Below, one piece after another: positions 24,057 to 44,334 of a stretch of DNA of 64,000 nucleotides. Origin of the DNA: Rhodothermia bacterium (GTDB taxonomy: Bacteria > Bacteroidota > Rhodothermia > Balneolales > Balneolaceae). Within the stretch, counting starts at the first letter, position 1. The number at the start of each line of letters is the position of its first letter. Below the pieces are notes generated by a model. The model had not been told where the DNA came from. It did not search any database and worked only from the letters and a program-made list of their open reading frames with translations. The position numbers were made by a program, and so were the translations under genes. Location: the NCBI GenBank assembly GCA_030427885.1, contig JAUICM010000005.1, positions 62,001-126,000 of the forward strand, in the 5' to 3' direction.

Positions 24057-24830
24057 ATGGTAAAAGACATCATCAGGTTGGCCAGAGAGGCCGGGGAAAA
24101 AATACTTGAGTTTTATGATGAAAAGGTAGAAGTCACAACTAAAAAAGACGACTCACCCTTAACTAAAGCCGATCTGGCTGCTCATCATCATATTGTGGCT
24201 GGTTTAAAAGAATTAACACCAGAGATACCGATCATTTCAGAAGAGTCGGGAGTTCCGGATTATTCTGAAAGAAAAGAATGGAACAAATTTTGGATGGTTG
24301 ATCCACTTGATGGTACCAAGGAGTTCATCAAGAAGAATGGTGAGTTTACTGTTAATATTGCTCTTATTGAAGAGAGTGTTCCTGTAATGGGTGTTGTTTA
24401 TGTTCCAGCTACCGGAGTTGTGTATTATGGCGAACAAGGTGTTGGTACGTTTAAGAAAGATGAAGAAAGTAAAATAACTCAGCTCATCAATCAGGAATTC
24501 AAAAAACCAGGAAAAGCCCGTATTGTGGTAAGCAGATCACATGGAGATGATGCTACAAAAAAGAAATTAGAGAATATCGGGATTGAAGTAACTGAAGAGG
24601 TTCCATCAGGAAGTTCTTTAAAATTCTGCCTGGTAGCAGAAGGAAAAGCTGATATTTATCCAAGGCTTGGCCCGACTATGGAATGGGATACTGCAGCGGC
24701 AGATGCTGTGTACCGCTATTCAACTAAAGAAGGTGAAAAATATTCACCCTTGACTTACAATAAAGAAAATCTGTTAAATCCTTATTTTGTGATAGGTATT
24801 AACGAATATATAGACGCTGAATCATTGTAA
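24057..24830 (+). CDS. cysQ: 3'(2'),5'-bisphosphate nucleotidase CysQ
   Basis: A 257-residue inositol-monophosphatase-fold enzyme. Metal ligands are visible as SEES (61-64), DPLDGTKEF (82-90) and EWDTAAADAV (209-218), all intact. CysQ hydrolyses 3'-phosphoadenosine 5'-phosphate (PAP), the by-product left when sulfotransferases or PAPS reductase use PAPS, and so prevents its inhibition of those enzymes. It lies 12 bases after the permease and two bases before cysD, a tight operon. With five sulfotransferases in the polysaccharide locus downstream, PAP removal should matter. Confidence 0.95.
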   Translation: MVKDIIRLAREAGEKILEFYDEKVEVTTKKDDSPLTKADLAAHHHIVAGLKELTPEIPIISEESGVPDYSERKEWNKFWMVDPLDGTKEFIKKNGEFTVNIALIEESVPVMGVVYVPATGVVYYGEQGVGTFKKDEESKITQLINQEFKKPGKARIVVSRSHGDDATKKKLENIGIEVTEEVPSGSSLKFCLVAEGKADIYPRLGPTMEWDTAAADAVYRYSTKEGEKYSPLTYNKENLLNPYFVIGINEYIDAESL

Positions 24831-24831
24831 T

Positions 24832-25740
24832 ATGACTACATTAAGATCACATTCTCACCTGAAAGAGCTCGAAGACGAAGGAATTTACATCATGAGAGAA
24901 GTGGCCGCTCAGTTCGAACGGCCCGTTCTTCTTTTCTCTGGAGGAAAAGATTCCATCGTGATGTTTCATCTGGCCCGAAAGGCATTCCACCCGGGCAAAA
25001 TCCCATTTCCATTAATGCATGTAGATACAGGACATAACTTTCCGGAAGCAATTGAATTTCGGGATGGTCTGGTAGAGAAGTACGGGGTTGAGCTTATTGT
25101 AGGTAGTGTACAGGAATCTATTGATGAAGGAAGAGTTGAGGAAGAGACGGGCCCTGACGCGAGTCGTAATGCCTTACAAACGGTGACCTTGCTGGATACT
25201 TTAAAGAAGCATCAGGTTGATGCCGCATTGGGAGGTGGTCGCCGGGATGAGGAGAAAGCCCGTGCAAAAGAACGTTTCTTTTCACACCGTGATATTTTTG
25301 GTCAGTGGGATCCTAAAAACCAGCGTCCGGAATTATGGAATCTTTACAATGGCAGAAAAAAACCAGGTGAGAATTTCAGGGTTTTCCCGATAAGCAACTG
25401 GACAGAAATGGATGTGTGGCAGTACATCGCACAGGAAAATATTGAGATTCCGTCTATATATTTTGCTCACGAACGAAAAGTTTTTAACCGTCGCGGGGTT
25501 TGGTTGGCTGATACCGAATTCATCAATAAAATGGATGATGAAGAAGTGGTAACGAAAGTCGTGCGCTTCAGAACAATAGGGGATGCAACCTGTACCGGAG
25601 CAGTACTTTCTGATGCTTCAACGATGGAAGATATAATCCAGGAAGTAGCGTCAGCACGTGAAACGGAACGCGGTACCAGACACGATGACAAACGCAGCGA
25701 AACCGCTATGGAAGACCGTAAGAAACAAGGCTATTTCTAG
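24832..25740 (+). CDS. cysD: Sulfate adenylyltransferase subunit 2 (CysD)
   Basis: A 302-residue PAPS-reductase-fold ATP pyrophosphatase. The PP-loop SGGKDS is at 36-41; other family stretches are HVDTGHNFPE, GGGRRDEEKARAKER and RVFPISNWTEMDVWQYI. With CysN it forms ATP sulfurylase, making adenylyl sulfate (APS) from ATP and sulfate. Length is normal for bacterial CysD. Normally cysN follows at once; here a four-helix-bundle gene is inserted between them and the gap begins with a hairpin that includes the stop codon. Confidence 0.96.
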   Translation: MTTLRSHSHLKELEDEGIYIMREVAAQFERPVLLFSGGKDSIVMFHLARKAFHPGKIPFPLMHVDTGHNFPEAIEFRDGLVEKYGVELIVGSVQESIDEGRVEEETGPDASRNALQTVTLLDTLKKHQVDAALGGGRRDEEKARAKERFFSHRDIFGQWDPKNQRPELWNLYNGRKKPGENFRVFPISNWTEMDVWQYIAQENIEIPSIYFAHERKVFNRRGVWLADTEFINKMDDEEVVTKVVRFRTIGDATCTGAVLSDASTMEDIIQEVASARETERGTRHDDKRSETAMEDRKKQGYF

Positions 25741-25755
25741 CCGCACAAGCGGCTA
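25738..25755 (+). other. Hairpin containing the cysD stop codon
   Basis: Perfect 7-bp stem TAGCCGC (25738-25744) and GCGGCTA (25749-25755) with loop ACAA, starting at the TAG stop. The next bases AGTTTTGAG are too poor in T for a convincing terminator. It marks the left edge of the inserted cassette. Confidence 0.55.
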
Positions 25756-25756
25756 A

Positions 25757-25781
25757 GTTTTGAGTGCTCGGTTTTGAGTTG
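25757..25781 (+). repeat. Left inverted arm of the four-helix-bundle cassette
   Basis: GTTTTGAGTG followed by CTCGGTTTTGAGTTG. The first ten bases are an exact inverted copy of CACTCAAAAC at 26215-26224 in the start of cysN, and direct copies occur at 28120 and 28531. Confidence 0.65.
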
Positions 25782-25838
25782 TAAGGAATTGGTTTGTAAT
25801 CAGTCTTACTAAACAAATCAAAATATTGGAGTACTCAT

Positions 25839-26195
25839 ATGAAGTATAATGGACCGATTTACGAAAAATCATTCGAATTTGCACTAATGACATTAGAACT
25901 ACAAAAGAGTTTAATGCTTTTGAAAGAGTTTGAAATTGGAAGTCAGATTCTAAGAGCCGGAACGAGTATTGGAGCAAATGTCAATGAAGCAGGAGCTGCA
26001 GTATCTCGGAAAGATTTCGGAAATAAAATGTCAATTGCATTAAAAGAAGCCCGGGAATCATGGTTCTGGCTTCGGCTATTAAAAGCAACAAATACAATTC
26101 AAATAGACGTAGATCATAACATTGATCGATGTACTGAACTGGTTAAGATCCTTACATCAATAGTGAAGACTACTCAAGCAAGCATCAAAAAATGA
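25839..26195 (+). CDS. Four-helix-bundle protein (23S rRNA intervening-sequence protein-like)
   Basis: A 118-residue all-helical protein of the family first found in intervening sequences of 23S rRNA genes. Signature parts are FEFALMTLELQKSLMLL, GSQILRAGTSIGANVNEAGAAVSRKDFGNKMSIALKEARESWFWLRLL. No enzyme residues. It has a good ribosome site (GGAG, seven bases before ATG). Its stop overlaps the ATG of cysN in ATGA, so translation is coupled. Placement between the two ATP-sulfurylase subunits, flanked by inverted repeats, suggests an inserted element. Function of free-standing homologues is unknown; nucleic-acid binding has been proposed for relatives (Avd). Confidence 0.88.
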   Translation: MKYNGPIYEKSFEFALMTLELQKSLMLLKEFEIGSQILRAGTSIGANVNEAGAAVSRKDFGNKMSIALKEARESWFWLRLLKATNTIQIDVDHNIDRCTELVKILTSIVKTTQASIKK

Positions 26196-28120
26196 GCAAC
26201 GAAAACGAACTCAACACTCAAAACTCATCACTAAAAACTGGCGAAGCCGACAACGCATATTTAAACATGGACATGCTCCGTTTTACTACGGCAGGATCCG
26301 TAGATGATGGGAAAAGTACACTCATTGGTAGACTTCTGTACGATTCAAAATCCATCTTTGCTGACCAGATGGAAGCAATTGAGAAATCAAGTAAAAGCAG
26401 CGGCGAAGAAGAAGTAAACCTGGCGTTACTAACCGATGGACTTAAAGCTGAGCGCGAACAAAAGATCACCATCGATGTTGCTTACCGGTATTTTGCTACT
26501 CCGAAAAGAAAATTCATTATAGCGGATACACCTGGTCATACTCAATATACCAGAAATATGGTGACCGGCGCATCAACAGCTGATCTGGCTATTATTTTGG
26601 TGGATGCATCTAAAGGTATCCTGACTCAATCCCGGCGTCATGCGTTTATTTCGTCGCTGCTTCGTATTCCACATTTGGTGGTAGCAGTAAATAAGATGGA
26701 TTTAGTGGATTATGACGAGGCTACCTTTAACGAGATCGTTGCAGATTTCAAGGAGTTCGCTCATAAACTGGATGTATCGGATATTACTTTCATTCCTATT
26801 TCAGCATTAAAAGGAGATAATGTTGTTGATAAAGGGGAGAAAATGGATTGGTACAAAGGTTCCACACTTCTTCATCATCTCGAAAATGTAAAGGTTGATG
26901 CTGCTGATAATGTACTGGATTTCCGTTTTCCTGTTCAATATGTGATACGCCCGGGAATGAATTTCCGTGGATTCTCAGGACAGGTTGCATCAGGGCATGT
27001 GCGTCCCGGTGATGAGATTAAAGTACTCCCTTCAGGTTTGACTTCGAAGGTAAAAGAAATTGTGACCATGGACGGAAATCTGGATGTAGCATATCCCAGA
27101 GATTCCATAGCTATTACCATAGAAGACGAGATCGATATCAGTCGTGGTGACATGATTGTTCGTAAAGATAATGTTCCAACTATCAGAAATGAGTTTGAGT
27201 CATTTTTATGCTGGATGAATGAAAAACCACTGGATCTGAACAAGCAATATATTCTGCAACACACCTCAAATCAGGTTCAGGTATTTATTGATGAGATTTT
27301 CTACCGGATCAATGTGGATACCCTCGGTCGGGAAGACACATACGAGTTAAAGTTGAATGAGATCGGAAGAGTAAAACTCAAGACCAGCAAGAGTATATTT
27401 TTCGATCCATACCAGATCAACCAAAGAACGGGTAGTTTCATAATTATCGATCCAACTACGAACGTTACAGTTGGTGCTGGTATGATCCGTGCAGGATCAA
27501 CAGTATCTAAAAAAGTTGATGATTCTGTAACTGAGAAGTTGGTTTCTCCGAATGTAACATGGGAACCATGGAATATTCCTAGAGAAACAAGGGAAGAAAA
27601 AAATGGCCATAAGGCACAGGTTTTATGGTTTACAGGTATTTCAGGTGCGGGTAAATCCACCATTGCAAAAGAACTTGAAAAGAAATTATGGTCTGAAGGC
27701 AAACAAACAATGCTGCTGGACGGTGATCAGGTACGTCATGGCTTAAATGGCGATCTTGGATTTAGTCCAAAAGACAGAAAAGAGAATATTCGCAGAGTAG
27801 GACATCTTTCGAGATTATTCTTTGAACACGGAAATATTGTTCTTTGCACCTTCGTATCCCCTTATGCTGAAGACCGTGAATTTGTGAAATCACTTTTCCC
27901 GGAAGGATCTTTTAAAGAGGTCTTTGTGACCTGTTCACCTGAAACAGCAAAAGAAAGAGACCCTAAAGGACTTTATGCAAAAGCTGAAAAAGGAGAAATC
28001 TCAAACCTGACGGGTTTTGATGCAGATCATGAAGCACCTGCCGATGCATTAGTCATCAATACGGATAAACTTTCGTTAGAAGATGCCGTTCAAAAAGTGA
28101 TAGAAGTTTTGAATGCTTAG
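26192..28120 (+). CDS. cysN: Bifunctional CysN-CysC: sulfate adenylyltransferase subunit 1 / adenylylsulfate kinase
   Basis: A 642-residue fusion. The CysN GTPase part has GSVDDGKS (35-42), DTPGH (112-116) and NKMD (167-170), followed by EF-Tu-like beta domains to about 445. From about 472 an APS kinase begins, with P-loop GISGAGKST at 482-490 and LDGDQVRHGLNGDLGFS...RKENIRR. Together with CysD it turns sulfate into APS and then PAPS. The first 20 residues precede the conserved YLNMDMLRF core and are partly encoded by a copy of the ACTCAAAAC repeat (residues 7-16). The kinase fusion favours PAPS output, which fits the sulfotransferases of the next locus. Confidence 0.95.
   Translation: MSNENELNTQNSSLKTGEADNAYLNMDMLRFTTAGSVDDGKSTLIGRLLYDSKSIFADQMEAIEKSSKSSGEEEVNLALLTDGLKAEREQKITIDVAYRYFATPKRKFIIADTPGHTQYTRNMVTGASTADLAIILVDASKGILTQSRRHAFISSLLRIPHLVVAVNKMDLVDYDEATFNEIVADFKEFAHKLDVSDITFIPISALKGDNVVDKGEKMDWYKGSTLLHHLENVKVDAADNVLDFRFPVQYVIRPGMNFRGFSGQVASGHVRPGDEIKVLPSGLTSKVKEIVTMDGNLDVAYPRDSIAITIEDEIDISRGDMIVRKDNVPTIRNEFESFLCWMNEKPLDLNKQYILQHTSNQVQVFIDEIFYRINVDTLGREDTYELKLNEIGRVKLKTSKSIFFDPYQINQRTGSFIIIDPTTNVTVGAGMIRAGSTVSKKVDDSVTEKLVSPNVTWEPWNIPRETREEKNGHKAQVLWFTGISGAGKSTIAKELEKKLWSEGKQTMLLDGDQVRHGLNGDLGFSPKDRKENIRRVGHLSRLFFEHGNIVLCTFVSPYAEDREFVKSLFPEGSFKEVFVTCSPETAKERDPKGLYAKAEKGEISNLTGFDADHEAPADALVINTDKLSLEDAVQKVIEVLNA
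26209..26239 (+). repeat. Right inverted arm, lying inside the cysN reading frame
   Basis: The bases from ACTCAACACTCAAAACTC onward to CACTAAAAACT match the same repeat found in inverted form at 25757-25781 and again at 28176-28196 and 28782-28812. It encodes residues 6-16 of CysN. Confidence 0.65.
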
Positions 28121-33193: not shown

Positions 33194-34603
33194 ATGTCTA
33201 AGGCATTAAACGGATTAAAATGGGCTGCCATTGATAAATTTGGTCAACAGCTTCTCACATTTATTCTTTTTCTGGTAATTGCATCAAGATTGACACCAGA
33301 AGAGTTTGGTATTTATGCGTTTTGTATGCTTACATCCTCATTTGCGATTCTTCTCCAGGATCTGGGGATTGGTGAGGCCATAATTAAACTTCCTGCAAAA
33401 AAAGATGTGCTCAATTCAGCATTTTTTACAAATGTAGGCATTTCAATTATCCTTACAGGCGTGATGATTGCCACTGCTGATAAGATGAGTGAATTATATG
33501 GGCTCCCCGAAGCCGGTAAATATGTAAAACTTATTTCAATCTCAGTTTTCATTAAGTCCTTCAATATTGTCCAAGAGTCAATTCTAAGGAAAAAGTTGAA
33601 ATTTAAAATTTTGGCTATCCGAACTTCTGTGGCGAAGCTCATTAGTAGTGTTATCGCAGTAGTGCTTGTCTTTTTAGACTTTGGTGTTTACTCCTTGGTA
33701 TTTCAAAGCATTAGTTTTGCTGTGTTATCAGTTGTTCTTATCTGGTTTTTGGCAGATTGGAAACCTTCTTTCTCGATTAACTATACTACCTTTAAGAGAG
33801 TCCTTAAAGTTTCATTCTCCTTTCTTAATGCCAAGATTGTTTCAGTACTAGATTCAAAAACCGATGAATTTGTGATAGGCTATTTCTTCGGCCCCAAAGC
33901 CCTTGGACTGTATACGGTAGCAATGAATTTTACAAAAAGGATATTTGAACTTCTTAACGGAATTATTTTGGGTTATACATATCCTCTTTTGAGCTCAAAA
34001 AAAAGGGCTGATATCAATGCAACATTTCTTAGAATTCTAAAGCACCTTTCCTATATCTCTCTGTTGGTTTTTATGGGGATCTTCAACTACAATGAGGAAC
34101 TGATTTCTGTAGCCCTTGGGGAAAAATGGGCTGATGCAGGTTTTTATTTGAAAATATTATCAATTTTTGCGATCTCGAAAGTAATATCAGGATTAACAGC
34201 TCAGACCTTAAAGTCAATTAATAAGGTTAATGCTGTTTTCAGGATAAAAATTGTTGAGACCTCTACTAAGATTATTGTATTTTTTGCTTTTGCCTATTTC
34301 ACAAATGAGTTTGTGACTGTAACAGTGGCCTATTTGTTTACCTCAATATATAAGATATTCGTGTTTGGCTATTATTTGGGTAAATACAGTGGAATAAGGT
34401 CTTTTGAGTTTGTAAAAATATACTTTGAGAGGCTCTTATATATATCTCCGATTTTTATAGGGATTTTTATTAAGACAGGTAATAACCTGCTAAATTTGGC
34501 AATAGCAATAGGTTTATCACTAATAAGTCTTGGGATTTATCTTTATTTGAATAATGATTTAAAAATGATTGTAAGAAATGTTGTCAAAGTTCAAAAGGTT
34601 TAA
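33194..34603 (+). CDS. wzx: Polysaccharide flippase, Wzx/MOP superfamily
   Basis: A 469-residue polytopic membrane protein with about 12-14 hydrophobic helices. The opening SKALNGLKWAAIDKFGQQLLTFILFLVIASRLTPEEFGIYAF is typical of WzxC-like lipopolysaccharide flippases. It moves undecaprenyl-linked repeat units to the periplasmic side. A strong GAGGGGG ribosome site precedes the ATG. Its last 26 bases overlap the first sulfotransferase gene, so modification and transport genes are tightly linked. A second flippase lies at 61698. Confidence 0.9.
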   Translation: MSKALNGLKWAAIDKFGQQLLTFILFLVIASRLTPEEFGIYAFCMLTSSFAILLQDLGIGEAIIKLPAKKDVLNSAFFTNVGISIILTGVMIATADKMSELYGLPEAGKYVKLISISVFIKSFNIVQESILRKKLKFKILAIRTSVAKLISSVIAVVLVFLDFGVYSLVFQSISFAVLSVVLIWFLADWKPSFSINYTTFKRVLKVSFSFLNAKIVSVLDSKTDEFVIGYFFGPKALGLYTVAMNFTKRIFELLNGIILGYTYPLLSSKKRADINATFLRILKHLSYISLLVFMGIFNYNEELISVALGEKWADAGFYLKILSIFAISKVISGLTAQTLKSINKVNAVFRIKIVETSTKIIVFFAFAYFTNEFVTVTVAYLFTSIYKIFVFGYYLGKYSGIRSFEFVKIYFERLLYISPIFIGIFIKTGNNLLNLAIAIGLSLISLGIYLYLNNDLKMIVRNVVKVQKV

Positions 34604-35357
34604 AAAAGTAGCCTGGCCCCCTCTGAGTTCAGATATTTATCTGGTGTCATATCCAAAATCTGGTAATACCTGGTTACGTTACTTACTTTCTAATTGTATC
34701 ATTAAATATTTGGGAAGCAATAGGGAAGTCAATTGGTTTAATCTTCAGGAGTTTATTCCTGATATTGATGTAAACAACATACTTCCTCTGACTAGTTCTT
34801 TTTCAGAACTTCCGAGGATCATAAAGAGTCACGCTGAGTACAACCCGCACTATCTTAGAGTAATATATCTTGTAAGAAATCCCGTAGATGTAGTTGAGTC
34901 TTATTATTACTATAACAAAAACTTCGAGAAATATTCTGATGCAGATTTTTTGAATTCCAGATATGGAATAGAACCCTGGTTAACTCATATTGAATCGTGG
35001 TCAAAAAATCCTCGACAGGGACAAATAGTAAAGTTTATCAAGTATGAAGATCTCGTACTGGAAACTGAAAAAACAATCTCATATATATTATCAATCATAG
35101 GGATTCCATTAAGTGAGGTTCATATTAAAGATATAGTTACGAAGGGGAGTAAAACTAACATGGCCAATGACGATAAAAACTTCAATTCAGATATGAGAAG
35201 GTTTACCGATAGTGATTTTATTCGTGAAAAAGACAGTAAAGACGAATTCCGGAATAAATTCGCAGAAAGAATATTAGAGATATTAAAAAAAAGCGATCAG
35301 CTTTCCCGTATTGAATTCATTTTTGAAAAGGAAATTGAGCAGGTAATTTATGGGTGA
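34578..35357 (+). CDS. Sulfotransferase 1 (PKSGNT type)
   Basis: A 259-residue PAPS-dependent sulfotransferase. The 5'-phosphosulfate loop YPKSGNTW is at 25-32, the catalytic His is in KSHAEY (His85), and the 3'-phosphate site is VIYLVRNPVDVVESYYYY (Arg100, Ser108). It transfers sulfate from PAPS to a hydroxyl; in this setting the acceptor is probably a sugar of the repeat unit. It overlaps wzx by 26 bases and the next sulfotransferase gene by eight. Closest in motif form to cytosolic Sulfotransfer_1 enzymes. Confidence 0.9.
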   Translation: MLSKFKRFKKVAWPPLSSDIYLVSYPKSGNTWLRYLLSNCIIKYLGSNREVNWFNLQEFIPDIDVNNILPLTSSFSELPRIIKSHAEYNPHYLRVIYLVRNPVDVVESYYYYNKNFEKYSDADFLNSRYGIEPWLTHIESWSKNPRQGQIVKFIKYEDLVLETEKTISYILSIIGIPLSEVHIKDIVTKGSKTNMANDDKNFNSDMRRFTDSDFIREKDSKDEFRNKFAERILEILKKSDQLSRIEFIFEKEIEQVIYG

Positions 35358-36159
35358 TACTATAATCTTCATTCATATCCCTAAGACAGGAGGGACTTCA
35401 TTACTAACTTTTCTGGACTATAATTTTCGAAAGGGAAAAGTTTTCTCAATCGCCAAAACCAGCAGGCAGATTTTTGACGAGAATGTGGTACTTATTCCTT
35501 TTCAGGAGAGACAAAAACGGGTAAAGCAATTCTTCTCAGAATTACCTCAGAGTAAAAAGAAAAAGTACAAGATCATATACGGTCATATGGAATATGGCTG
35601 GCATGATCTGGTTGAAAATTATCGATATGTTACATTTTTGAGAGAACCAGTAAGCAGAGTGGTTTCTTTATATCATTACATAATGAGGAAGACAAATATG
35701 GAGCTCAGTAAACAGATAAAAGAAGAAGGAATATCTGTAGAGGAATTTGTTAGCCAAAATTTACATGAAGAAGCATGTAACGGAATAATGAAAAGAATAT
35801 GTGGAGAAGAAGATTTTGACCCTAATGATCTTGAGAAGAGCTTCGAAATAGCAAAAGAAAGGTTACTCTCGTTTGCATATATAGGGTTCATGGATGATTT
35901 TGATAATTCACTTATTAGGTTTGGAGAGATGGCGGATGCAAAATATCTCTATTATCAAAGAAGTAATACAGCTAAACCGTCTTCAAAAAATATTTCTTAT
36001 AATAGAAACATAATTGCTGAATACAATAAGTATGATATTAGATTATACGAATTGGCAAAAAAGAAATTTTCGGGTATTGATTGGCAAACAAATAAAAAAG
36101 TTAACAAGAGTAATTCGATTAAATTTTACCTACAGATCAGGAATAAATTCGGGATATAA
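35350..36159 (+). CDS. Sulfotransferase 2 (HIPKTGGT type, carbohydrate sulfotransferase)
   Basis: A 269-residue enzyme of the Sulfotransfer_2 family, which includes heparan 2-O- and uronyl-type sulfotransferases. Visible sites are IHIPKTGGTSL (8-18, PAPS loop), YGHMEYG (His79) and VTFLREPVSRVVSLYHY (Arg98, Ser106). Members of this group act on polysaccharide or glycan chains. The start overlaps the previous gene by eight bases. All key residues are intact. Confidence 0.9.
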   Translation: MGDTIIFIHIPKTGGTSLLTFLDYNFRKGKVFSIAKTSRQIFDENVVLIPFQERQKRVKQFFSELPQSKKKKYKIIYGHMEYGWHDLVENYRYVTFLREPVSRVVSLYHYIMRKTNMELSKQIKEEGISVEEFVSQNLHEEACNGIMKRICGEEDFDPNDLEKSFEIAKERLLSFAYIGFMDDFDNSLIRFGEMADAKYLYYQRSNTAKPSSKNISYNRNIIAEYNKYDIRLYELAKKKFSGIDWQTNKKVNKSNSIKFYLQIRNKFGI

Positions 36160-36166
36160 TTAGGAT

Positions 36167-37030
36167 ATGTTTTTAAAGAAAACCAAAACTATTTATCAGA
36201 AAGCAAAAAGAGAATTTGAACTCCGATTTGGCAGTGAACGTACCTCTTCGGGAAGGATTCTCCAATCTTTAGATAAAAAAAGAAAGTCGGTACTTTTTTT
36301 TACCACCCATAAATGTGCATCTTCATTTATAAATATTTTGCTTGAAAAAATCGTAATCAGTTCTGATTACGATAATATAAACTATACAAAATCAATTAGA
36401 AGATTGGGGGACAAAACCTCAATAATTGATACGCATAAATATCTGAAAGAAAATTATCAATATCTGTTTGTTCCCTATGGGGAGATTTATGCTCCTCTAC
36501 GTAAACCTGTGATATTTCCTGGCTCTGAGGAATACCGACACATATTTTTTTTAAGGGATCCCCGTGATATCCTTGTATCAGGATTTCATTCTTTTGGAAG
36601 AACTCATCCTGTTCCAATCAATAAAGAGAAGAAAGAAACATTTTTGCAGAGAAGAAAAGAAATTAATGAAATGGGTATTGATAAATTTACCCTAAAAGAA
36701 GCTGTGGAGTGGGTTAAACCTATTTATGCTGAGTATCGATTGATGAGATCCACAGTAAACGACTCGATTTATCTTAAGTATGATCTTTTTAAAGAAGACC
36801 CTAGAGAATTTATTGAAAGAATTAATGCTTATCTAGACTTAGGAATTAATGACACTTTAGCGGAAAGCTTGGCTAATCTGGCTGAACCTGTTCAGAAAGA
36901 AATAAATGATTCTGCTCACAAGCGTTCGGGAAATAGTAACCAGTTTAAGAAGGAACTTAAACCAGAAACAATTCTAGAGCTTAATGACATTTTGAGAGAG
37001 GAGCTAGAGTACTGGGAATTTTCATTATGA
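36167..37030 (+). CDS. Sulfotransferase 3 (divergent THKCASSF loop)
   Basis: A 287-residue sulfotransferase-fold protein. The PAPS loop reads TTHKCASSFI (46-55), lacking the usual P-K-[ST]-G but keeping the Lys and following Ser; the 3'-phosphate site HIFFLRDPRDILVSGFHSFGRTHP (Arg130, Ser138) is strong. Similar HKCAS-loop enzymes are found in bacterial glycan clusters. The acceptor is unknown. Seven bases from the previous gene and 30 from the next, so part of the same operon. Confidence 0.82.
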   Translation: MFLKKTKTIYQKAKREFELRFGSERTSSGRILQSLDKKRKSVLFFTTHKCASSFINILLEKIVISSDYDNINYTKSIRRLGDKTSIIDTHKYLKENYQYLFVPYGEIYAPLRKPVIFPGSEEYRHIFFLRDPRDILVSGFHSFGRTHPVPINKEKKETFLQRRKEINEMGIDKFTLKEAVEWVKPIYAEYRLMRSTVNDSIYLKYDLFKEDPREFIERINAYLDLGINDTLAESLANLAEPVQKEINDSAHKRSGNSNQFKKELKPETILELNDILREELEYWEFSL

Positions 37031-37060
37031 AGAAGTTCCAGTTAATTACTTTTGAAGCAT

Positions 37061-38176
37061 ATGAGTGATTTGTTTAACGGTTTTTTCTTTCCCCATGACA
37101 AAAAGGAAGATCATTTTAAGGCTTTGGATGGGTTAAGAGGAATTGCAGTACTTTTTGTGCTACTTTCTCATTCAAGTAATCTTGGTATGTACTTCCATGA
37201 GTTCATAAATTTTTCCAAGATTGGCAAGGTTGGAGTTTATCTCTTTTTTGTTTTATCAGCATATCTTCTGGACCGTCAGATCGCACTTGCCTTGCTTGAT
37301 AAAAAGGCCTCAAAATATTATTGGGGGAACTATTTAGTAAGGCGGTTTTTGAGGATATATCCCTTGTTTGTGTTAGCTCTTTTAATGCACTTGGCGATAT
37401 CAAAGCTCTTATTTACAACAGTAATTACTGATATTGGTGGTGTTCTAATGCACATATTCCTATTAGAAGGGGAAAGCATTTTCTGGTCAATCCCAGTCGA
37501 ATTCAAATATTATTTCATATCACCTGTTCTTATGTTAATCATCAACAGGTTTTTAAAATGGAATCTTAAAAATATTAGCATCTGGATTATATCTATTTCA
37601 ATTATCTCGGCAATTCTGGTGAAAGTAATTGATCTGGATAATAACTCAACATTCAGGTTTCTACCCATATTTCTTGTCGGTACTTTATTGTCCGTAGGGG
37701 AATTAATTATTGATCGTACAAAAGAAAATAAGATGATCTTTAAAAAAAGCTTTTTTGAACTGTCTGGATGGATAGCCGTATTCCTGATCTTAATTTCAAT
37801 ACCATACTATTTCAAAACAGTTTTCGGATTTAGTTTTAATACTAATGACTCAATATTTTATATCCCATATTCGATCTGTTGGGGGCTGGTTTTACTTGGA
37901 GTTAAACATGGAAATTGGAAATTAAAGAGCTTGCTTGAACTTAAAATGTTTCGATTTGTTGGAACAATAAGCTTCAGTGTTTATCTCTTTCATTTGCCGA
38001 TTTTAGAGTTTGTTCATCAATCAGATTCTATTCCTGATGGTTATAAAATTTATTTATTTCTCTTTGTTACCATGGTTTTTTCATCAGTAACATATTTACT
38101 TATAGAGAGACCATTATCGAAGATCAGACTGAGCATGTTTTTGAATGAGAAGACACTGCAAAGACTCAAAAATTAA
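37061..38176 (+). CDS. Membrane acyltransferase, acyltransferase-3 family
   Basis: I choose the ATG at 37061 (371 residues); a TTG nine bases upstream is possible. A polytopic protein opening with FKALDGLRGIAVLFVLLSHSS, the acyltransferase-3 signature with its essential His, then about ten hydrophobic helices and RFVGTISFSVYLFHLPILEF near the end, another family landmark. Such enzymes O-acetylate or acylate sugars of O-antigen and capsule. It lies between a sulfotransferase and the radical-SAM/pyruvyltransferase gene, so it probably adds an acyl group to the repeat unit. Confidence 0.88.
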   Translation: MSDLFNGFFFPHDKKEDHFKALDGLRGIAVLFVLLSHSSNLGMYFHEFINFSKIGKVGVYLFFVLSAYLLDRQIALALLDKKASKYYWGNYLVRRFLRIYPLFVLALLMHLAISKLLFTTVITDIGGVLMHIFLLEGESIFWSIPVEFKYYFISPVLMLIINRFLKWNLKNISIWIISISIISAILVKVIDLDNNSTFRFLPIFLVGTLLSVGELIIDRTKENKMIFKKSFFELSGWIAVFLILISIPYYFKTVFGFSFNTNDSIFYIPYSICWGLVLLGVKHGNWKLKSLLELKMFRFVGTISFSVYLFHLPILEFVHQSDSIPDGYKIYLFLFVTMVFSSVTYLLIERPLSKIRLSMFLNEKTLQRLKN

Positions 38177-38206
38177 TTGTAACAGATTTTTAAATCAAAA
38201 TAAGTA

Positions 38207-40492
38207 ATGGACCTTTTCCTAGCCGGTAAAAAATTCTTACAAACAAGCCCTTTTCCAGACCCAGTATACCCAGAAGTAATACAATTTCCTGTGAATGATA
38301 TTTGTAACAGCAAATGTCAGATGTGTAACATTTGGAAACAAAAAAAGGAATTTGAGCTAAGTCTTGACCAAATAGAGGAACTGTATTCTCAACCCCTTTT
38401 TAAGAATGTTGAAACCGTAGGTCTAAATGGGGGAGAACCCACTCTTAGAAAAGATTTGCCTCAAATCGTAGAGCGGTTAAAAAAGTCATTACCTAGTCTG
38501 AAAAACATTTCACTCATTACCAATAGTATTATTCACAAAAGAGTGATTGCTTACATAGAAGAGATGGCAAAAATATGTCTGGATAACGGGTTGCACTTTG
38601 ATGTGATGTGTTCTTTGGATGGTGTGGGTGATGTGCACGATAGAGTAAGGGGAAGAAGTGGTAACTTTGAATCCGTGGAAAAAGTTATTGATGCTGCAAA
38701 AAAAATAAAAGGGGTAAGCAGCCTCAGAGTGGGCTGTACTATTATAAAAGAGAATGTGTTTGATGTAGAAGAAGTCCTTTTTTGGGCTATCAAAAATAAG
38801 GTGTATGCCAGATTCAGAATTGGTATTCCTCATCAACGCCTATACAAAGGAAACGATGCTGATGTGTTTGGTTTTAATGACGAAGAAAGATTCCATCTGA
38901 TAAATTTTTTAGAGGTCATTAATAAATACTATGAGAAAACATACTCTAGACGATTGTTTTATACTAGTCTTAAAAATCAATTATTGTATAATGCCCCGAG
39001 AAATGTAGGATGTAGCTGGAAGTACAGGGGAGCAACAGTGACCTCGAAAGGAGAGCTGGCGTACTGTGCAGTAGAAAGTGATATTCTTGGGAATTTATTA
39101 GAACAGGATGGAGAAGAACTTTATTGGGGGAATGCAGATCATCTAAAACAGATTCAAAAAGAAAAGTGTGCAAATTGTAATCATGACTACCAGGGATTAT
39201 TAACAAAAAAACAGTTTGTACTTAATTTAGTAGATGGAGCAATGCGAAGATATGCTCCTGTTAGTAAATCAATTAAATACATTAAAAAATTTAGAAATAG
39301 AAATAGTGCAAAAAGAGTAGCAGCTAAGAAAATTTATACTTCTGCAGAGAATGCCGAAAATCTGGATCAGATTCTGATTTGTGGATGGTACGGCACAGAA
39401 ACACTGGGCGACCAGGCAATTTTAGCTCAGTTAGTTCAGAATGTCAGAAAGCTTTATCCAAACCATCTCATACATCTATCAAGCCTGGATAAAACAGTTA
39501 GTAACTATACTGATTTAAAGAATGAGGATTGTAAGGTTGACGAAATACTTTCACTTTCTGAAGCAGAAAAAAGGATTGCAGCAAAAGCGTATTCTCATTT
39601 GATTTTTGGGGGTGGGCCAATAATGTCTACCGTTAGCAAGATTAATGAGATGTCATATTTCTTTAGATTGGCCAAGCATAATGGAACAAAGACAATTATA
39701 TATGGTGCTGGGGTAGGTCCGGTTGTGGAAAATGATAATCTCCCAAACCTGATTACTTTAATCGAAAACTCTGATCATATAGTAAACCGAGATGCTAAAT
39801 CTGCAGGTCTTAGCGTAAGATATGCATCAATGACTGAAGTAGAACATGCATGTGATCCTGCAATGATTTGGTTTAGAGATAAATACAGGTCAGACTTAGA
39901 AAAATCACGTTTAAATAAGGTTACTTTTGCTCTTCGAGAAATACCATTTTCACAGTACCATAGCGAGAAGGATGAAAACTTAAAAGTCCAAATAAATAAA
40001 AAATTTGAGCATGAAGTTCGGGATCTTATACAGAAGATTAAAGGTGAAGATGGCTCGGAAGTTGAACTTTTCTGTATGAATAAATTAGCAATTGGAGATG
40101 ATGACAGGCTTTTTTATGCAAAGCTCCTAAATCTTGATAGACAAAATAACGAAGGAATAAATATGGATATTCGTCACGGTAGTGTTAATGAATATATAAA
40201 GCACTTTTATAATTCAAAGGTAGCGGTTTGTATGCGTTATCACTCCGTATGTCTCGCTCTTGCAACAAAAACCCCATTTATCGCTATTGATTATACTAAT
40301 GGAGGAAAAACTAAGAATCTACTTAACGACCTCGGATTAATGGATCTGTATATAGATGTGAATGAGTTTACTAGTAAAAAAGCTGCTAAGCTTATGAAGG
40401 ACGCACCAATTATTCTTGAAGGTAAAAAAGAAGTTATAGATAGCTATCTTGATTCCTCAGAATTGAAATATGAGCAGCTTTTAAGAAAATGA
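38207..40492 (+). CDS. Fused radical SAM / polysaccharide pyruvyl transferase
   Basis: A 761-residue two-domain protein. Domain 1 (about 25-335) is a radical SAM enzyme: CNSKCQMC (Cys33, Cys37, Cys40), GGEP at 75-78, and a SPASM-like set of cysteines (Cys269, Cys287, Cys321, Cys324). Domain 2 (about 385-755) is a polysaccharide pyruvyl transferase: GWYGTETLGDQAIL (393-406), GGGP (468-471) and CMRYHS near 690. Pyruvyl transferases add ketal-linked pyruvate from PEP to sugars. What the radical SAM half does is unknown; carbohydrate epimerisation or dehydrogenation is a guess. Both halves keep their active motifs. Confidence 0.88.
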   Translation: MDLFLAGKKFLQTSPFPDPVYPEVIQFPVNDICNSKCQMCNIWKQKKEFELSLDQIEELYSQPLFKNVETVGLNGGEPTLRKDLPQIVERLKKSLPSLKNISLITNSIIHKRVIAYIEEMAKICLDNGLHFDVMCSLDGVGDVHDRVRGRSGNFESVEKVIDAAKKIKGVSSLRVGCTIIKENVFDVEEVLFWAIKNKVYARFRIGIPHQRLYKGNDADVFGFNDEERFHLINFLEVINKYYEKTYSRRLFYTSLKNQLLYNAPRNVGCSWKYRGATVTSKGELAYCAVESDILGNLLEQDGEELYWGNADHLKQIQKEKCANCNHDYQGLLTKKQFVLNLVDGAMRRYAPVSKSIKYIKKFRNRNSAKRVAAKKIYTSAENAENLDQILICGWYGTETLGDQAILAQLVQNVRKLYPNHLIHLSSLDKTVSNYTDLKNEDCKVDEILSLSEAEKRIAAKAYSHLIFGGGPIMSTVSKINEMSYFFRLAKHNGTKTIIYGAGVGPVVENDNLPNLITLIENSDHIVNRDAKSAGLSVRYASMTEVEHACDPAMIWFRDKYRSDLEKSRLNKVTFALREIPFSQYHSEKDENLKVQINKKFEHEVRDLIQKIKGEDGSEVELFCMNKLAIGDDDRLFYAKLLNLDRQNNEGINMDIRHGSVNEYIKHFYNSKVAVCMRYHSVCLALATKTPFIAIDYTNGGKTKNLLNDLGLMDLYIDVNEFTSKKAAKLMKDAPIILEGKKEVIDSYLDSSELKYEQLLRK

Positions 40493-40496
40493 GCCA

Positions 40497-41717
40497 ATGA
40501 AAATTCTCATTTTAAACGAAGCTGATTACGGCGGTGGCGCAGCAATTGCAGCTTTAAGGGTATATGAAGCGTTATCGGCTAAATCAGACCATGAGGTGTA
40601 TTTTAAAGCAAAACGTACAAGGAATTCCAAAAACGGAATAAACGTGAGGACTTGGGCAGACTTTCTTAATAAGCTGTTCAAGAAAACTGAAAGAGAATTA
40701 CTGAATCAGATTCGTACCGATAAGCACGATCTATTAAATATTGATTTAGGAAATTTATTTGACCTGACAGGAGATTTAAAGAGAGAGATAGATAAAATTA
40801 ATCCTGATATAATTAATCTTCACTGGATTAATAATGGATTCATATCTCTTCGGTTGATCAAAAAACTGGCAAATGATTATAAGATACTCTGGACACTTCA
40901 TGACATGTGGCCAATGTTAGGCATTCAGCATTATGATAGAGGCGAATTTGAAACTATTAAACGAGGGAGTATTTTTCGCTTGTTAGATAATTGGGCTATC
41001 AAACAAAAGGGTGAAATTTTTCGAAACGAGAATATCCATTTCGGGTGTATAAGTAATTGGATGAAAGATGAACTACTAAAAAGATGGGATATTCCGGAGA
41101 GCAGAATTCATATAACTCCCAATACTTTAAGTAATAAGATCACTGAGACTTCTATGGAGAGTAATTCTGAAGAAAAGGAGGGTTTGTTTACAATAATTCT
41201 TTCTTCAAAGGCTTCTGATACTGATATGCGAAAAGGTTTTGATTTGCTAAAGAACGTTATTTCTAGAATTGAAAGTGAAAATATTCAGCTTATTGTTTTA
41301 GGGTGTAAGCAGAAAAAGGATTACAAGATAGGTAAGGTCAAAGTAACTGAATATGAAAACACAAATAATGAAGACGAGATCATAGGTTATTATCAGGAAT
41401 CAGATCTGCATATTTGTTGTTCAAGAATGGATAATTATCCAAATACGGTTCTTGAAGCGAATGGTCTTTCTATTCCCACAATAGCATTTAATGTAGGTGG
41501 TCTGAAAGATATGATTGATCATGGAAAAACAGGTTTTCTGGTATCTCCTTTCGATACAGAAGCGATGGCCAATCTTATAGATAAGATTTCTAAGGATCTT
41601 CCGATGAGAGAAGAGTTGAAAAAGAATCTGAAAGCCCGTAAAAAATTCAACTCTCAGGAAAATATATCGGGCATATATTTGTCCGTATTTAATGAATTAC
41701 TTCTCTCTAATTTTTAG
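40497..41717 (+). CDS. Glycosyltransferase family 4
   Basis: A 406-residue GT-B enzyme. The N-terminal glycine-rich stretch NEADYGGGAAIAALRVYEAL (7-26), the LHDMWPMLG segment and the C-terminal GT4 donor site SDLHICCSRMDNYPNTVLEANGLSIPTIAFNVGGLKDMI, with the Glu of the PNTVLEA motif, are clear. It transfers a hexose or deoxyhexose from a nucleotide sugar on the cytosolic face of the membrane. Donor and linkage cannot be predicted. Four bases after the radical-SAM gene. Confidence 0.88.
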   Translation: MKILILNEADYGGGAAIAALRVYEALSAKSDHEVYFKAKRTRNSKNGINVRTWADFLNKLFKKTERELLNQIRTDKHDLLNIDLGNLFDLTGDLKREIDKINPDIINLHWINNGFISLRLIKKLANDYKILWTLHDMWPMLGIQHYDRGEFETIKRGSIFRLLDNWAIKQKGEIFRNENIHFGCISNWMKDELLKRWDIPESRIHITPNTLSNKITETSMESNSEEKEGLFTIILSSKASDTDMRKGFDLLKNVISRIESENIQLIVLGCKQKKDYKIGKVKVTEYENTNNEDEIIGYYQESDLHICCSRMDNYPNTVLEANGLSIPTIAFNVGGLKDMIDHGKTGFLVSPFDTEAMANLIDKISKDLPMREELKKNLKARKKFNSQENISGIYLSVFNELLLSNF

Positions 41718-41720
41718 AAG

Positions 41721-42383
41721 GTGAAATCCAATCTGATGTTTGAAAGATATAAATCTAAAACACTGCTTATTTCGAAAGAAAAAAAGTTCATTTTTATTCA
41801 CAACTATAAAGTGGCGGGGACAAGCGTTCGCAAGATTCTTTCTGATTACCAAAGTGAGAGTTATAGATTTCTTTCGAATCTACTTTGGTTTTCTATCAAA
41901 GATATAAGAGACAAACATAAACTTACCTTATCAAAACATGCTGACTACCGGAAGGTGGAAGCTGTTTTTGGTACCAGCCTTAATGAATTTAAATTATTTG
42001 GGTTTGTTAGAAACCCCTGGGACTGGGAGGTGTCAAAGTATGAATATATGGTGCAGAACAAGGAACATTTTCAACACAAGCTTGCAGCATCTTTTCAGTC
42101 TTTCGATGAGTATTTAGCCTGGAGAACTACAGAATTCAGAACCCAAAGCTCCTTTTTCAAAGACTCAGAAGGTAAGCTCTTTTCAGGAAATATTTTAAAA
42201 ATCGAAAATAAGAATGAAGTCAACGCTTATTTAAGTTCCCTTGTGGGTAAAAGTATAAGTCTTCCCGAAAGTAATACAACCTCAAGAAAACCATATCAGG
42301 AATATTACGATACAAAGGATATGATTGAGATAATTGAAAAGTTATATCAGGAAGACATTGAAAAGTTTTCTTATTCCTTTTAG
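41721..42383 (+). CDS. Sulfotransferase 4 (HNYKVAGT type)
   Basis: A 220-residue Sulfotransfer_2-type protein. PAPS loop HNYKVAGTSV (27-36), SKHADY (His73) and 3'-phosphate site LFGFVRNPWDWEVSKYEYM (Arg97, Ser105). Many bacterial relatives carry HIPKxAGT here. The frame opens with GTG at 41721; the ATG at 41736 is another possible start. It lies between two glycosyltransferase genes, which fits an action on the growing repeat unit. Short for the family but both substrate sites are complete. Confidence 0.85.
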   Translation: MKSNLMFERYKSKTLLISKEKKFIFIHNYKVAGTSVRKILSDYQSESYRFLSNLLWFSIKDIRDKHKLTLSKHADYRKVEAVFGTSLNEFKLFGFVRNPWDWEVSKYEYMVQNKEHFQHKLAASFQSFDEYLAWRTTEFRTQSSFFKDSEGKLFSGNILKIENKNEVNAYLSSLVGKSISLPESNTTSRKPYQEYYDTKDMIEIIEKLYQEDIEKFSYSF

Positions 42384-42401
42384 GGTAGGTGGGGGTATGG
42401 T

Positions 42402-43358
42402 ATGAAAGAAAAATTTTATGTTTATATACCAAAACAGATGGGGCATTACTTATACTACCTTAAAGTGCTCGAAGCTTATGGGATCAGCTTTGAGGTAGTT
42501 GAGACAAATGAGCTTGGAATAGTACAATATCTCCGGCTGATTTATAAAAATAGACACCGCAAACATATACTGTTGAGTGCGGAATCAATTTTAAAGAAGA
42601 AACCCTGGATTCTTTTTTTATTAAATCTGTTTCGATGTGATTACAATCAAATTTTATATTATGTAACTCACTTTGAACGATCTAGGGGTACTAGTGTAAT
42701 TTTCAGACAATATTTCAAATTTTGCAGTGGAAAATCTCGGATCAAATCCTTTGTGATAACTCCGGAGGTGTCATCTAAGATTACCAATGACTATGGCCTT
42801 GTTGTCACTACCGACCCGATAACGGAGGTAAGTGTTGAAGAAATGAAATCATTTCCTTATCAAGGGATTAACTATCTGTTACTGATTGGGAGTCATGATA
42901 AAAGAAAAGGAACATATGATTTTTTAAAAAGATTGAAAGAAACAGATTTGGAAATAATAGTTGCTGGTAAAGTTTATGACGAAAGACTAAAGGAAATAGA
43001 TACCTCTACTTTTGGCTTCAAGGTTCGCGTTATAGATCAGTTTCTGGAAGAAGACCTTATGTTTAATCTCATTCAGAAGGCCAAATGTATTGTTGTTCCA
43101 TATATAAATTGGGATGGATCAAGTGGGATTTTAGGGCAGTCTCTTTTATTTGATAAAGTAATTATGGGAACTGATAACGGAACAATAGGACGTATTTTAA
43201 AAGAGTATGAAAAATCTATTCTTATTGATCAGACTGATGAGGAGATTTCCATTACTGATTCAGAGATAAATGAACTCGAGCAGGTTAGTTCAAACGCGAA
43301 ACAGTTATTGAATAAATACTATAACCCCGAAATATTTATAAAGGATATAACAAGCTAA
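42402..43358 (+). CDS. GT-B glycosyltransferase (GT4-like)
   Basis: A 318-residue protein. The C-terminal half has the GT-B donor domain: NYLLLIGSHDKRKGTYDFLKRL...IIVAGKV...LIQKAKCIVVPYINWDGSSGILGQSLLFDKVIMGTDNGTIGRIL, with the Glu-x7-Glu region weak. The N-terminal half is less typical (MGHYLYYLKVLEAYGISFEVVE). It is shorter than most GT4 enzymes. Substrate unknown. It is in the same run as sulfotransferases 4 and 5. Confidence 0.78.
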   Translation: MKEKFYVYIPKQMGHYLYYLKVLEAYGISFEVVETNELGIVQYLRLIYKNRHRKHILLSAESILKKKPWILFLLNLFRCDYNQILYYVTHFERSRGTSVIFRQYFKFCSGKSRIKSFVITPEVSSKITNDYGLVVTTDPITEVSVEEMKSFPYQGINYLLLIGSHDKRKGTYDFLKRLKETDLEIIVAGKVYDERLKEIDTSTFGFKVRVIDQFLEEDLMFNLIQKAKCIVVPYINWDGSSGILGQSLLFDKVIMGTDNGTIGRILKEYEKSILIDQTDEEISITDSEINELEQVSSNAKQLLNKYYNPEIFIKDITS

Positions 43359-43449
43359 AAGAGAGATTAAATTGTACCTTTCAGGGCAATTCAGATTAGT
43401 GAAGATTGAAACTATAGGAAGTGAAAACAGGCGATTTTGAGAATTTAAA

Positions 43450-44334
43450 ATGAAAACGTTCATTCATGTAGGATTACATAAAACTGCATCAACTTATCTC
43501 CAAACGGAGGTCTTCCCTAGACTGAAATCTTGTTATTATGTATCAAGACCTACTACTCAGTTTAACTATGAACTTGCATCGCTTCAGTATCTGGATGATA
43601 CCCTGTATAAAGAAGAAAATGTTATCGAATACTTCTCAGGGCTTAGGAAAAAAGCGGGAGGTAAAAATCTGTTTCTTTCAGACGAAGCCTTTTCTGGGAA
43701 GGCAATAAAGTATGGGTATATTAACAGATCTATGATTGCAGATCGTTTGTCGCGTATATGTAACGATGCTGAAATAATAATCGTCTTGCGTAATCCAATC
43801 GATATTTTGATTTCCTTATACAATCAGTATGTAAAGATTGGGGGAACAAACCACTACAAGCGGTATTTTAAAAAAATTGATAAAACAGAATTTTTTGATG
43901 AAAAGAATTATCAGGAAAATTGGGACACGAGTAAACTTCCAATAAATACGGTTTCCGATTCTATCCTGATTGAATATTTTAATTACTCTAAATTGATTGA
44001 GCTCTATGAAACAAGATTTAAAAAAGTTCATGTTCTGTTTCTGGAAAAATTCAGTGAGGAGAATTACCTGGCTTCTCAGCTAGAAAGAATTTTTTCAGAA
44101 TCATTAGAAATACCTTCAAACAAAAAGAAAATCAATCAATCAATACCTAATGGCTCGCTCGCGTTGTATGCGAAGCTGAATAGATTACTTAATGTTTTTT
44201 TCGATAACCGGGCTGGAATTCGAAAAAAACTTTATCGTTTTGATATTCTTGGTAGAAATGATGAGTTGAGGAAATTTCTGGAAGATAACTTTAAGGATTT
44301 ACTCGAATACAAAGTGGATAAAATTGAATATTAA
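43450..44334 (+). CDS. Sulfotransferase 5 (HKTAST type)
   Basis: A 294-residue sulfotransferase. PAPS loop VGLHKTASTYLQ (7-18) and 3'-phosphate site IIIVLRNPIDILISLYNQYVK (Arg114, Ser122); LSDEAFSG (77-83) lies between, as in related bacterial glycan sulfotransferases. All substrate-binding residues appear intact. A 91-base gap precedes it, one of the few breaks in the run, and its end overlaps the polymerase gene by 11 bases. The acceptor is presumably the polysaccharide. Confidence 0.86.
   Translation: MKTFIHVGLHKTASTYLQTEVFPRLKSCYYVSRPTTQFNYELASLQYLDDTLYKEENVIEYFSGLRKKAGGKNLFLSDEAFSGKAIKYGYINRSMIADRLSRICNDAEIIIVLRNPIDILISLYNQYVKIGGTNHYKRYFKKIDKTEFFDEKNYQENWDTSKLPINTVSDSILIEYFNYSKLIELYETRFKKVHVLFLEKFSEENYLASQLERIFSESLEIPSNKKKINQSIPNGSLALYAKLNRLLNVFFDNRAGIRKKLYRFDILGRNDELRKFLEDNFKDLLEYKVDKIEY

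Follow-up and report, generated by a model that had tools for sequence, protein, structure and literature searches.

BtrN, NeoN and BlsE are examples of sugar-acting radical SAM enzymes, which are known from antibiotic pathways; to our knowledge, a radical step within surface-polysaccharide assembly would be new. BtrN is a Twitch radical SAM 2-deoxy-scyllo-inosamine dehydrogenase that has a four-cysteine, fully ligated auxiliary cluster and catalyses the two-electron oxidation of a sugar-like alcohol (PMC6231123, PMC9012708). In the Twitch sugar epimerase NeoN, Cys249 donates hydrogen, and the title of a paper cited in the same source states that a single-cysteine mutation reveals a latent dehydrogenase activity in HygY (PMC10991966). 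SPASM/Twitch enzymes also include SkfB, with a C-x33-C-x-C spacing and a predicted peptide-binding domain, and function within the group is difficult to infer from similarity of sequence (PMC6231123). As for pyruvylation, the substrates of CsaB and WcfO are precursors linked to undecaprenyl-PP (PMC6801904). In P. alvei CsaB, R148, R207, R306, H308 and K328 are located in or close to the PEP site; changes of R148 and R207, or of H308 to Ala or Arg, inactivate the enzyme (PMC10435577).

We then analysed a 64,000-nucleotide stretch of DNA from a Rhodothermia bacterium (hereafter the window), in which one gene joins the two kinds of enzyme (Table 1). As the initial annotation had described, one uninterrupted frame from ATG to stop encodes the motif CNSKCQMC, comprising C33, C37 and C40, followed by GGEP, four later cysteines and a complete pyruvyl-transferase domain. 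Pfam searches indeed placed both Radical_SAM (E 1.4e-18, 68.1 bits against a gathering score of 29.5) and PS_pyruv_trans (E 2.2e-29, 103.7 bits against 25.3) above their cut-offs, the latter domain being preceded by GWYGTETLGDQAIL at residues 393-406. Between them lies a region of the form C269-x17-C287-x33-C321-x2-C324-x-H326-D327, where SPASM (PF13186, residues 269-325) scored 15.5 bits, under its gathering score of 21.5. The AlphaFold model (mean pLDDT 85.6, pTM 0.82) predicted two domains well, and modelled the Twitch-like region as short strands at residues 275-278 and 283-285 followed by helices. A linker, first placed at about residues 335-385, joins the two predicted domains and is predicted to be flexible at about 350-384.

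Table 1. Features of the fusion gene and of its surroundings, in window coordinates
Feature	Position	Strand	Length	Basis or remark
CysNC-type PAPS-synthesis gene (APS kinase + GTPase)	26192-28120			
Wzx-type flippase	33194-34603	+		Pfam Polysacc_synt_3
Sulfotransferase-like gene, upstream of fusion	34578-35357	+		Pfam
Sulfotransferase-like gene, upstream of fusion	35350-36159	+		Pfam
Sulfotransferase-like gene, upstream of fusion	36167-37030	+		Pfam
Acyltransferase_3 gene	37052-38176	+		Pfam; 30 bases upstream of fusion
Fusion gene: radical SAM / Twitch / linker / polysaccharide pyruvyl transferase	38207-40492	+	761 aa	
Radical SAM core, residues 29-193; C33/C37/C40 (CxxxCxxC), GGEP 75-78	38291-38785	+		PF04055
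Twitch-like auxiliary cluster region, residues 269-328	39011-39190	+		Invariant residues; sub-cut-off SPASM match
Flexible linker (predicted), residues 350-384	39254-39358	+		pLDDT < 50; variable length
Polysaccharide pyruvyl transferase domain, residues 400-697	39404-40297	+		PF04230
Partner family-4 glycosyltransferase (GT4)	40497-41717	+		Pfam; 4 bases downstream of fusion
Sulfotransferase-like gene	41721-42383	+		Pfam
Glycosyltransferase-like gene	42402-43358	+		Pfam, below gathering score
Weak sulfotransferase-like gene	43450-44334	+		Pfam, below gathering score

The GTDB genome contigs were scanned with a three-sequence alignment, which afforded 31 loci with full-length relatives, with 24-38% identity across the full alignment and as much as 40% in the best-matching segment. 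Taken together, the relatives of full length number more than 30 (24-40% identity), each a single frame of 718-804 residues, and come from Bacteroidota, Cyanobacteriota, Chloroflexota, Planctomycetota, Pseudomonadota (gamma and zeta) and Bdellovibrionota. Since the identical architecture recurs in more than 30 independent genomes, a sequencing or assembly fusion, or a chance joining, is ruled out, and the architecture search that the initial annotation had called for thus showed that the halves are not always separate in relatives. The family is rare: two full-length relatives besides the window's were found in 395 genomes sampled from its phylum, a cyanobacterial sample added three more, and the frequency was about 1-2% of genomes or fewer per sampled phylum, three of the four samples being centred on a genome already known to carry the fusion. 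It was missing from all 97 relatives searched within the window's own family, order and class, where the sole pyruvyltransferase match was a lone distant gene; the fusion is therefore an accessory trait. A plasmid origin was considered and set aside, since no full-length relative turned up in the plasmid records searched. The Algibacter isolate 4-1434 carries two distinct copies, about 31% and 24% identical to that of the window.

In an alignment of 32 fusion proteins, the only cysteines invariant throughout were C33, C37, C40, C269, C287, C321 and C324, and the spacing C-x17-C-x33-35-C-x2-C followed by H326-D327 was kept in all. R528, R577, R677, H679 and K701 of the other half, which align with R148, R207, R306, H308 and K328 of CsaB, were likewise invariant. 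Given this invariance of the cysteines and of the PEP-site residues, both halves look catalytic. The mean majority fraction was 0.59 for the radical SAM half, 0.49 for the pyruvyltransferase half and 0.36 for the linker, the least conserved segment, whose length varies among relatives; relative to one homologue (L025), the two halves of the window protein showed 49% and 32% identity, respectively. Residue 501 of the window protein (39707-39709), in the pyruvyltransferase motif GCGxGP, is Ala, whereas 31 of the 32 aligned proteins have Cys. The family signature, CNSKCxMCNIW ... CxxCxHD ... GWYGTETxGDKAIL, was found in no curated model, and the window protein passed no NCBIfam cut-off among the 25 families listed.

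The two halves appear rarely apart. In 23 fusion genomes, a profile of the radical SAM half gave 375-546 bits for the fused protein and no more than 92 bits for any other; with one of the pyruvyltransferase half, in 21 genomes, the corresponding scores were 239-471 bits and no more than 61. Across 244 cyanobacterial genomes, four fusions reached 468-523 bits and nothing else came above 95. Quick trees of the two halves, with long branches, have their main split in common, as expected had the halves stayed joined: one group contains the window protein, Cyanobacteria, Chloroflexaceae and Plasticicumulans, and the other is led by Bacteroidota and Planctomycetota, with Allomuricauda on a separate long branch. 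These quick, long-branched trees fit a scenario in which the halves were joined once and the fused gene was then transferred across phyla. Among lone relatives of the radical SAM half, the closest one (225 bits, in the Planctomycetota-phylum sample) lies in a glycan cluster with a split arrangement (L138, 7662-12856), consisting of this gene, a lone PF04230 gene and a second radical SAM gene with a SPASM match, with two GT4 genes just downstream. None of the next-best lone relatives stands beside a pyruvyltransferase. Another candidate split pair (L058) was rejected because its second gene encodes another radical SAM protein. Lone radical SAM relatives also occur in Woesearchaeota and Parcubacteria assemblies (L054 and L055), the latter with a GT4 directly after it.

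We compared the radical half with described enzymes. With C33, C37 and C40 invariant in 32 sequences and PF04055 above its cut-off, it belongs to the radical SAM superfamily, and the fold comparison places it among SPASM/Twitch enzymes. A full SPASM domain (CX9-15GX4C, gap, CX2CX5CX3C, gap, C) was rejected, as only four, not seven, post-core cysteines are invariant and PF13186 stays under its cut-off. The best NCBIfam matches were TIGR03961 (PTO1314 radical SAM, E 1.1e-21) and MoaA (E 9.6e-16), both with scores far under their cut-offs. The sugar-acting cytosylglucuronate decarboxylase BlsE gave the top query-normalised TM-score (0.65) among the listed PDB matches covering the radical half and the best PDB phmmer match of the entire protein; this sugar-nucleoside enzyme is about 19% identical to the fusion, and its pathway makes a natural product, not a surface glycan. 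The Twitch radical SAM sactisynthase SkfB, on the other hand, was the best PDB profile match (E 3.8e-17) and had the best fold E-value; unlike SkfB, the fusion has C-x33-C-x2-C and lacks the peptide-binding domain. Since BlsE tops the TM-scores while the peptide enzymes SkfB and anSME top the E-values, the fold does not decide the substrate. The likeness to BtrN would lie in a radical SAM core with one putative four-cysteine auxiliary cluster region, a resemblance in cysteine number; BtrN is missing from the listed fold matches, and the fusion differs from it in being joined to a transferase.

The pyruvyltransferase half shares its fold family (PF04230) and PEP-site residues with the ketal-pyruvyltransferases CsaB, WcfO and Pvg1, the residues of Pvg1 (5ax7) being partly matched by alignment, and the pyruvate donor should be PEP, judging from these residues. 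It is not CsaB itself, since it scored 83.7 bits against the cut-off of 213.1 for the TIGR03609 equivalog and has a different acceptor loop; unlike CsaB, it is also joined to a radical SAM half. In comparison with four cyanobacterial CsaB proteins passing that cut-off, the acceptor-binding loop reads GWYGTET instead of GYYGxGN, and GGP replaces GGS; because of this difference, the acceptor is probably not that of CsaB.

We next turned to the gene context. The gene after the fusion is a GT4 related to that of the window in 24 of the 32 loci, often with a 4-base overlap, although two of these matches (L048 and L049) are weak; one gene intervenes in two more loci, and a few fusions have no GT4. 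These downstream GT4s are the most similar to the window GT4 among the genes around fusions, the other GT4s of the loci scoring under 30 bits. In one relative, a single protein of 2290 residues (L020, 4267-11139, minus strand) contains radical SAM/Twitch, pyruvyltransferase and GT4 parts, TPR repeats and a second radical SAM domain. It is followed by a gene for another very large multi-glycosyltransferase protein. Of 198 Bacteroidota-phylum genomes, 24 (about 12%) carry a member of this GT4 family but no fusion, and neither half adjoined it in any of 14 fusion-free GT4 loci. Its commonness in fusion-free genomes weakens the idea of a dedicated partner, and the GT4 is thus a favoured but not exclusive one. 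A partner-type GT4 (L098, C17:8673-9944) in a further genome from the phylum of the window lies inside a 3745-residue open frame. Other neighbours in relatives' loci are Wzx flippases or ABC-2 exporters, GT2s, acyl- or acetyltransferases, methyltransferases and dTDP-sugar genes.

The locus of the window comprises five sulfotransferase-like genes within 34578-44334, together with a Wzy-like gene, an initial sugar transferase, three UDP-sugar dehydrogenases and several epimerases. The co-occurrence of sulfotransferases, the CysNC-type gene, Wzx/Wzy-like genes and UDP-sugar dehydrogenases points to a sulfated acidic exopolysaccharide, and 24057-28120 together with 34578-44334 likely form a cluster that makes a sulfated exopolysaccharide and supplies the PAPS itself. 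Two genes just upstream of the CysNC-type gene, at 24057 and 24832, are possibly CysQ and CysD.

Taken together, we propose, with a probability of roughly 0.55, that the fusion is a bifunctional glycan-tailoring enzyme with oxidation as its leading radical chemistry. That both halves would act on one glycan, as the initial annotation had suggested in pairing a sugar-modifying radical half with a pyruvylating one, is well supported by the conserved catalytic residues of both halves, the constancy of the fusion and the glycan gene context, whereas the kind of radical chemistry is an inference. Among the three options then offered (oxidation, epimerisation and a C-C step), oxidation is now favoured, because the Twitch-like region resembles that of BtrN in having four cysteines and no hydrogen-donor cysteine is conserved; we give oxidation perhaps one chance in three.

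In the proposed mechanism, the cytoplasmic fusion would target one sugar residue during surface polysaccharide assembly, most likely in a repeat unit linked to undecaprenyl-diphosphate, a stage suggested by the action of CsaB and WcfO on such precursors. At the cluster held by C33, C37 and C40, the radical SAM/Twitch half would generate a 5'-deoxyadenosyl radical and take a hydrogen from the sugar, and the four-cysteine auxiliary cluster would accept the remaining electron, thereby converting a carbinol to a ketone in a net two-electron oxidation, as in BtrN. The C-terminal half would then transfer pyruvate from PEP to form a ketal on a diol of the same sugar or a neighbouring one. The linker and the adjoining GT4 would allow sugar addition, oxidation and pyruvylation in succession; both the lipid-linked stage and this order of steps are presumed. 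At somewhat less than even odds, we further suggest a widespread, undescribed bifunctional family that combines radical chemistry on a lipid-linked sugar with pyruvylation, yielding a keto or otherwise unprecedented pyruvylated capsule monosaccharide.

The most serious alternative, at about half the weight of the oxidative proposal, retains the bifunctional glycan enzyme but makes the radical step redox-neutral or bond-forming: a BlsE-like decarboxylation of a uronic acid, a deoxygenation or dehydration, or a C-C or C-S step. The rank of BlsE in both the listed TM-scores and the phmmer search speaks for it, and the UDP-sugar dehydrogenase genes of the locus would supply uronic acids, but in BtrN the four-cysteine auxiliary motif goes with two-electron oxidation (PMC9012708), albeit as a correlation only. 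It is improbable that the radical half works after pyruvylation, coupling or trimming the pyruvate ketal to give a new glycan substituent. The fusion implies only one common molecule rather than an order of steps, and conservation is higher in the radical half; the domain order and the context, however, do not favour this possibility, for which we know of no precedent. We regard as similarly doubtful a fusion for co-expression or membrane location of halves with different substrates, the radical half acting on a protein or lipid. Radical SAM/Twitch enzymes such as SkfB and anSME often modify peptides, but an unsystematic inspection of the surroundings showed no precursor peptide next to the gene, the annotated loci have a glycan context, the halves are still joined in 23 fusion genomes, and even the GT4 is fused in one relative. 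Finally, although aminoglycoside Twitch radical SAM epimerases exist and use a donor such as Cys249 of NeoN (PMC10991966), a NeoN/HygY-like epimerisation of a sugar carbon before pyruvylation is the least probable reading, since no eighth cysteine is invariant across the alignment of 32 proteins; within the radical half, C124 and C177 come closest but are Cys in only 20 and 21 of them, which disfavours the cysteine-dependent epimerisation once considered.

The recurrent two-part protein suggests free-radical chemistry in the building of bacterial outer sugar coats. Because the fusion names two reactions that likely meet on one sugar, the substrate is searchable by glycan analysis, to which cultured hosts such as Algibacter luteus, Reichenbachiella agariperforans and Plasticicumulans acidivorans are open. 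The initial annotation knew of no characterised enzyme with this fusion, and we indeed found no paper describing it among 5.4 million open papers. Both components are of known kinds; what appears to be new is that their fusion is conserved and that it implies a radical step in the assembly of surface glycans.
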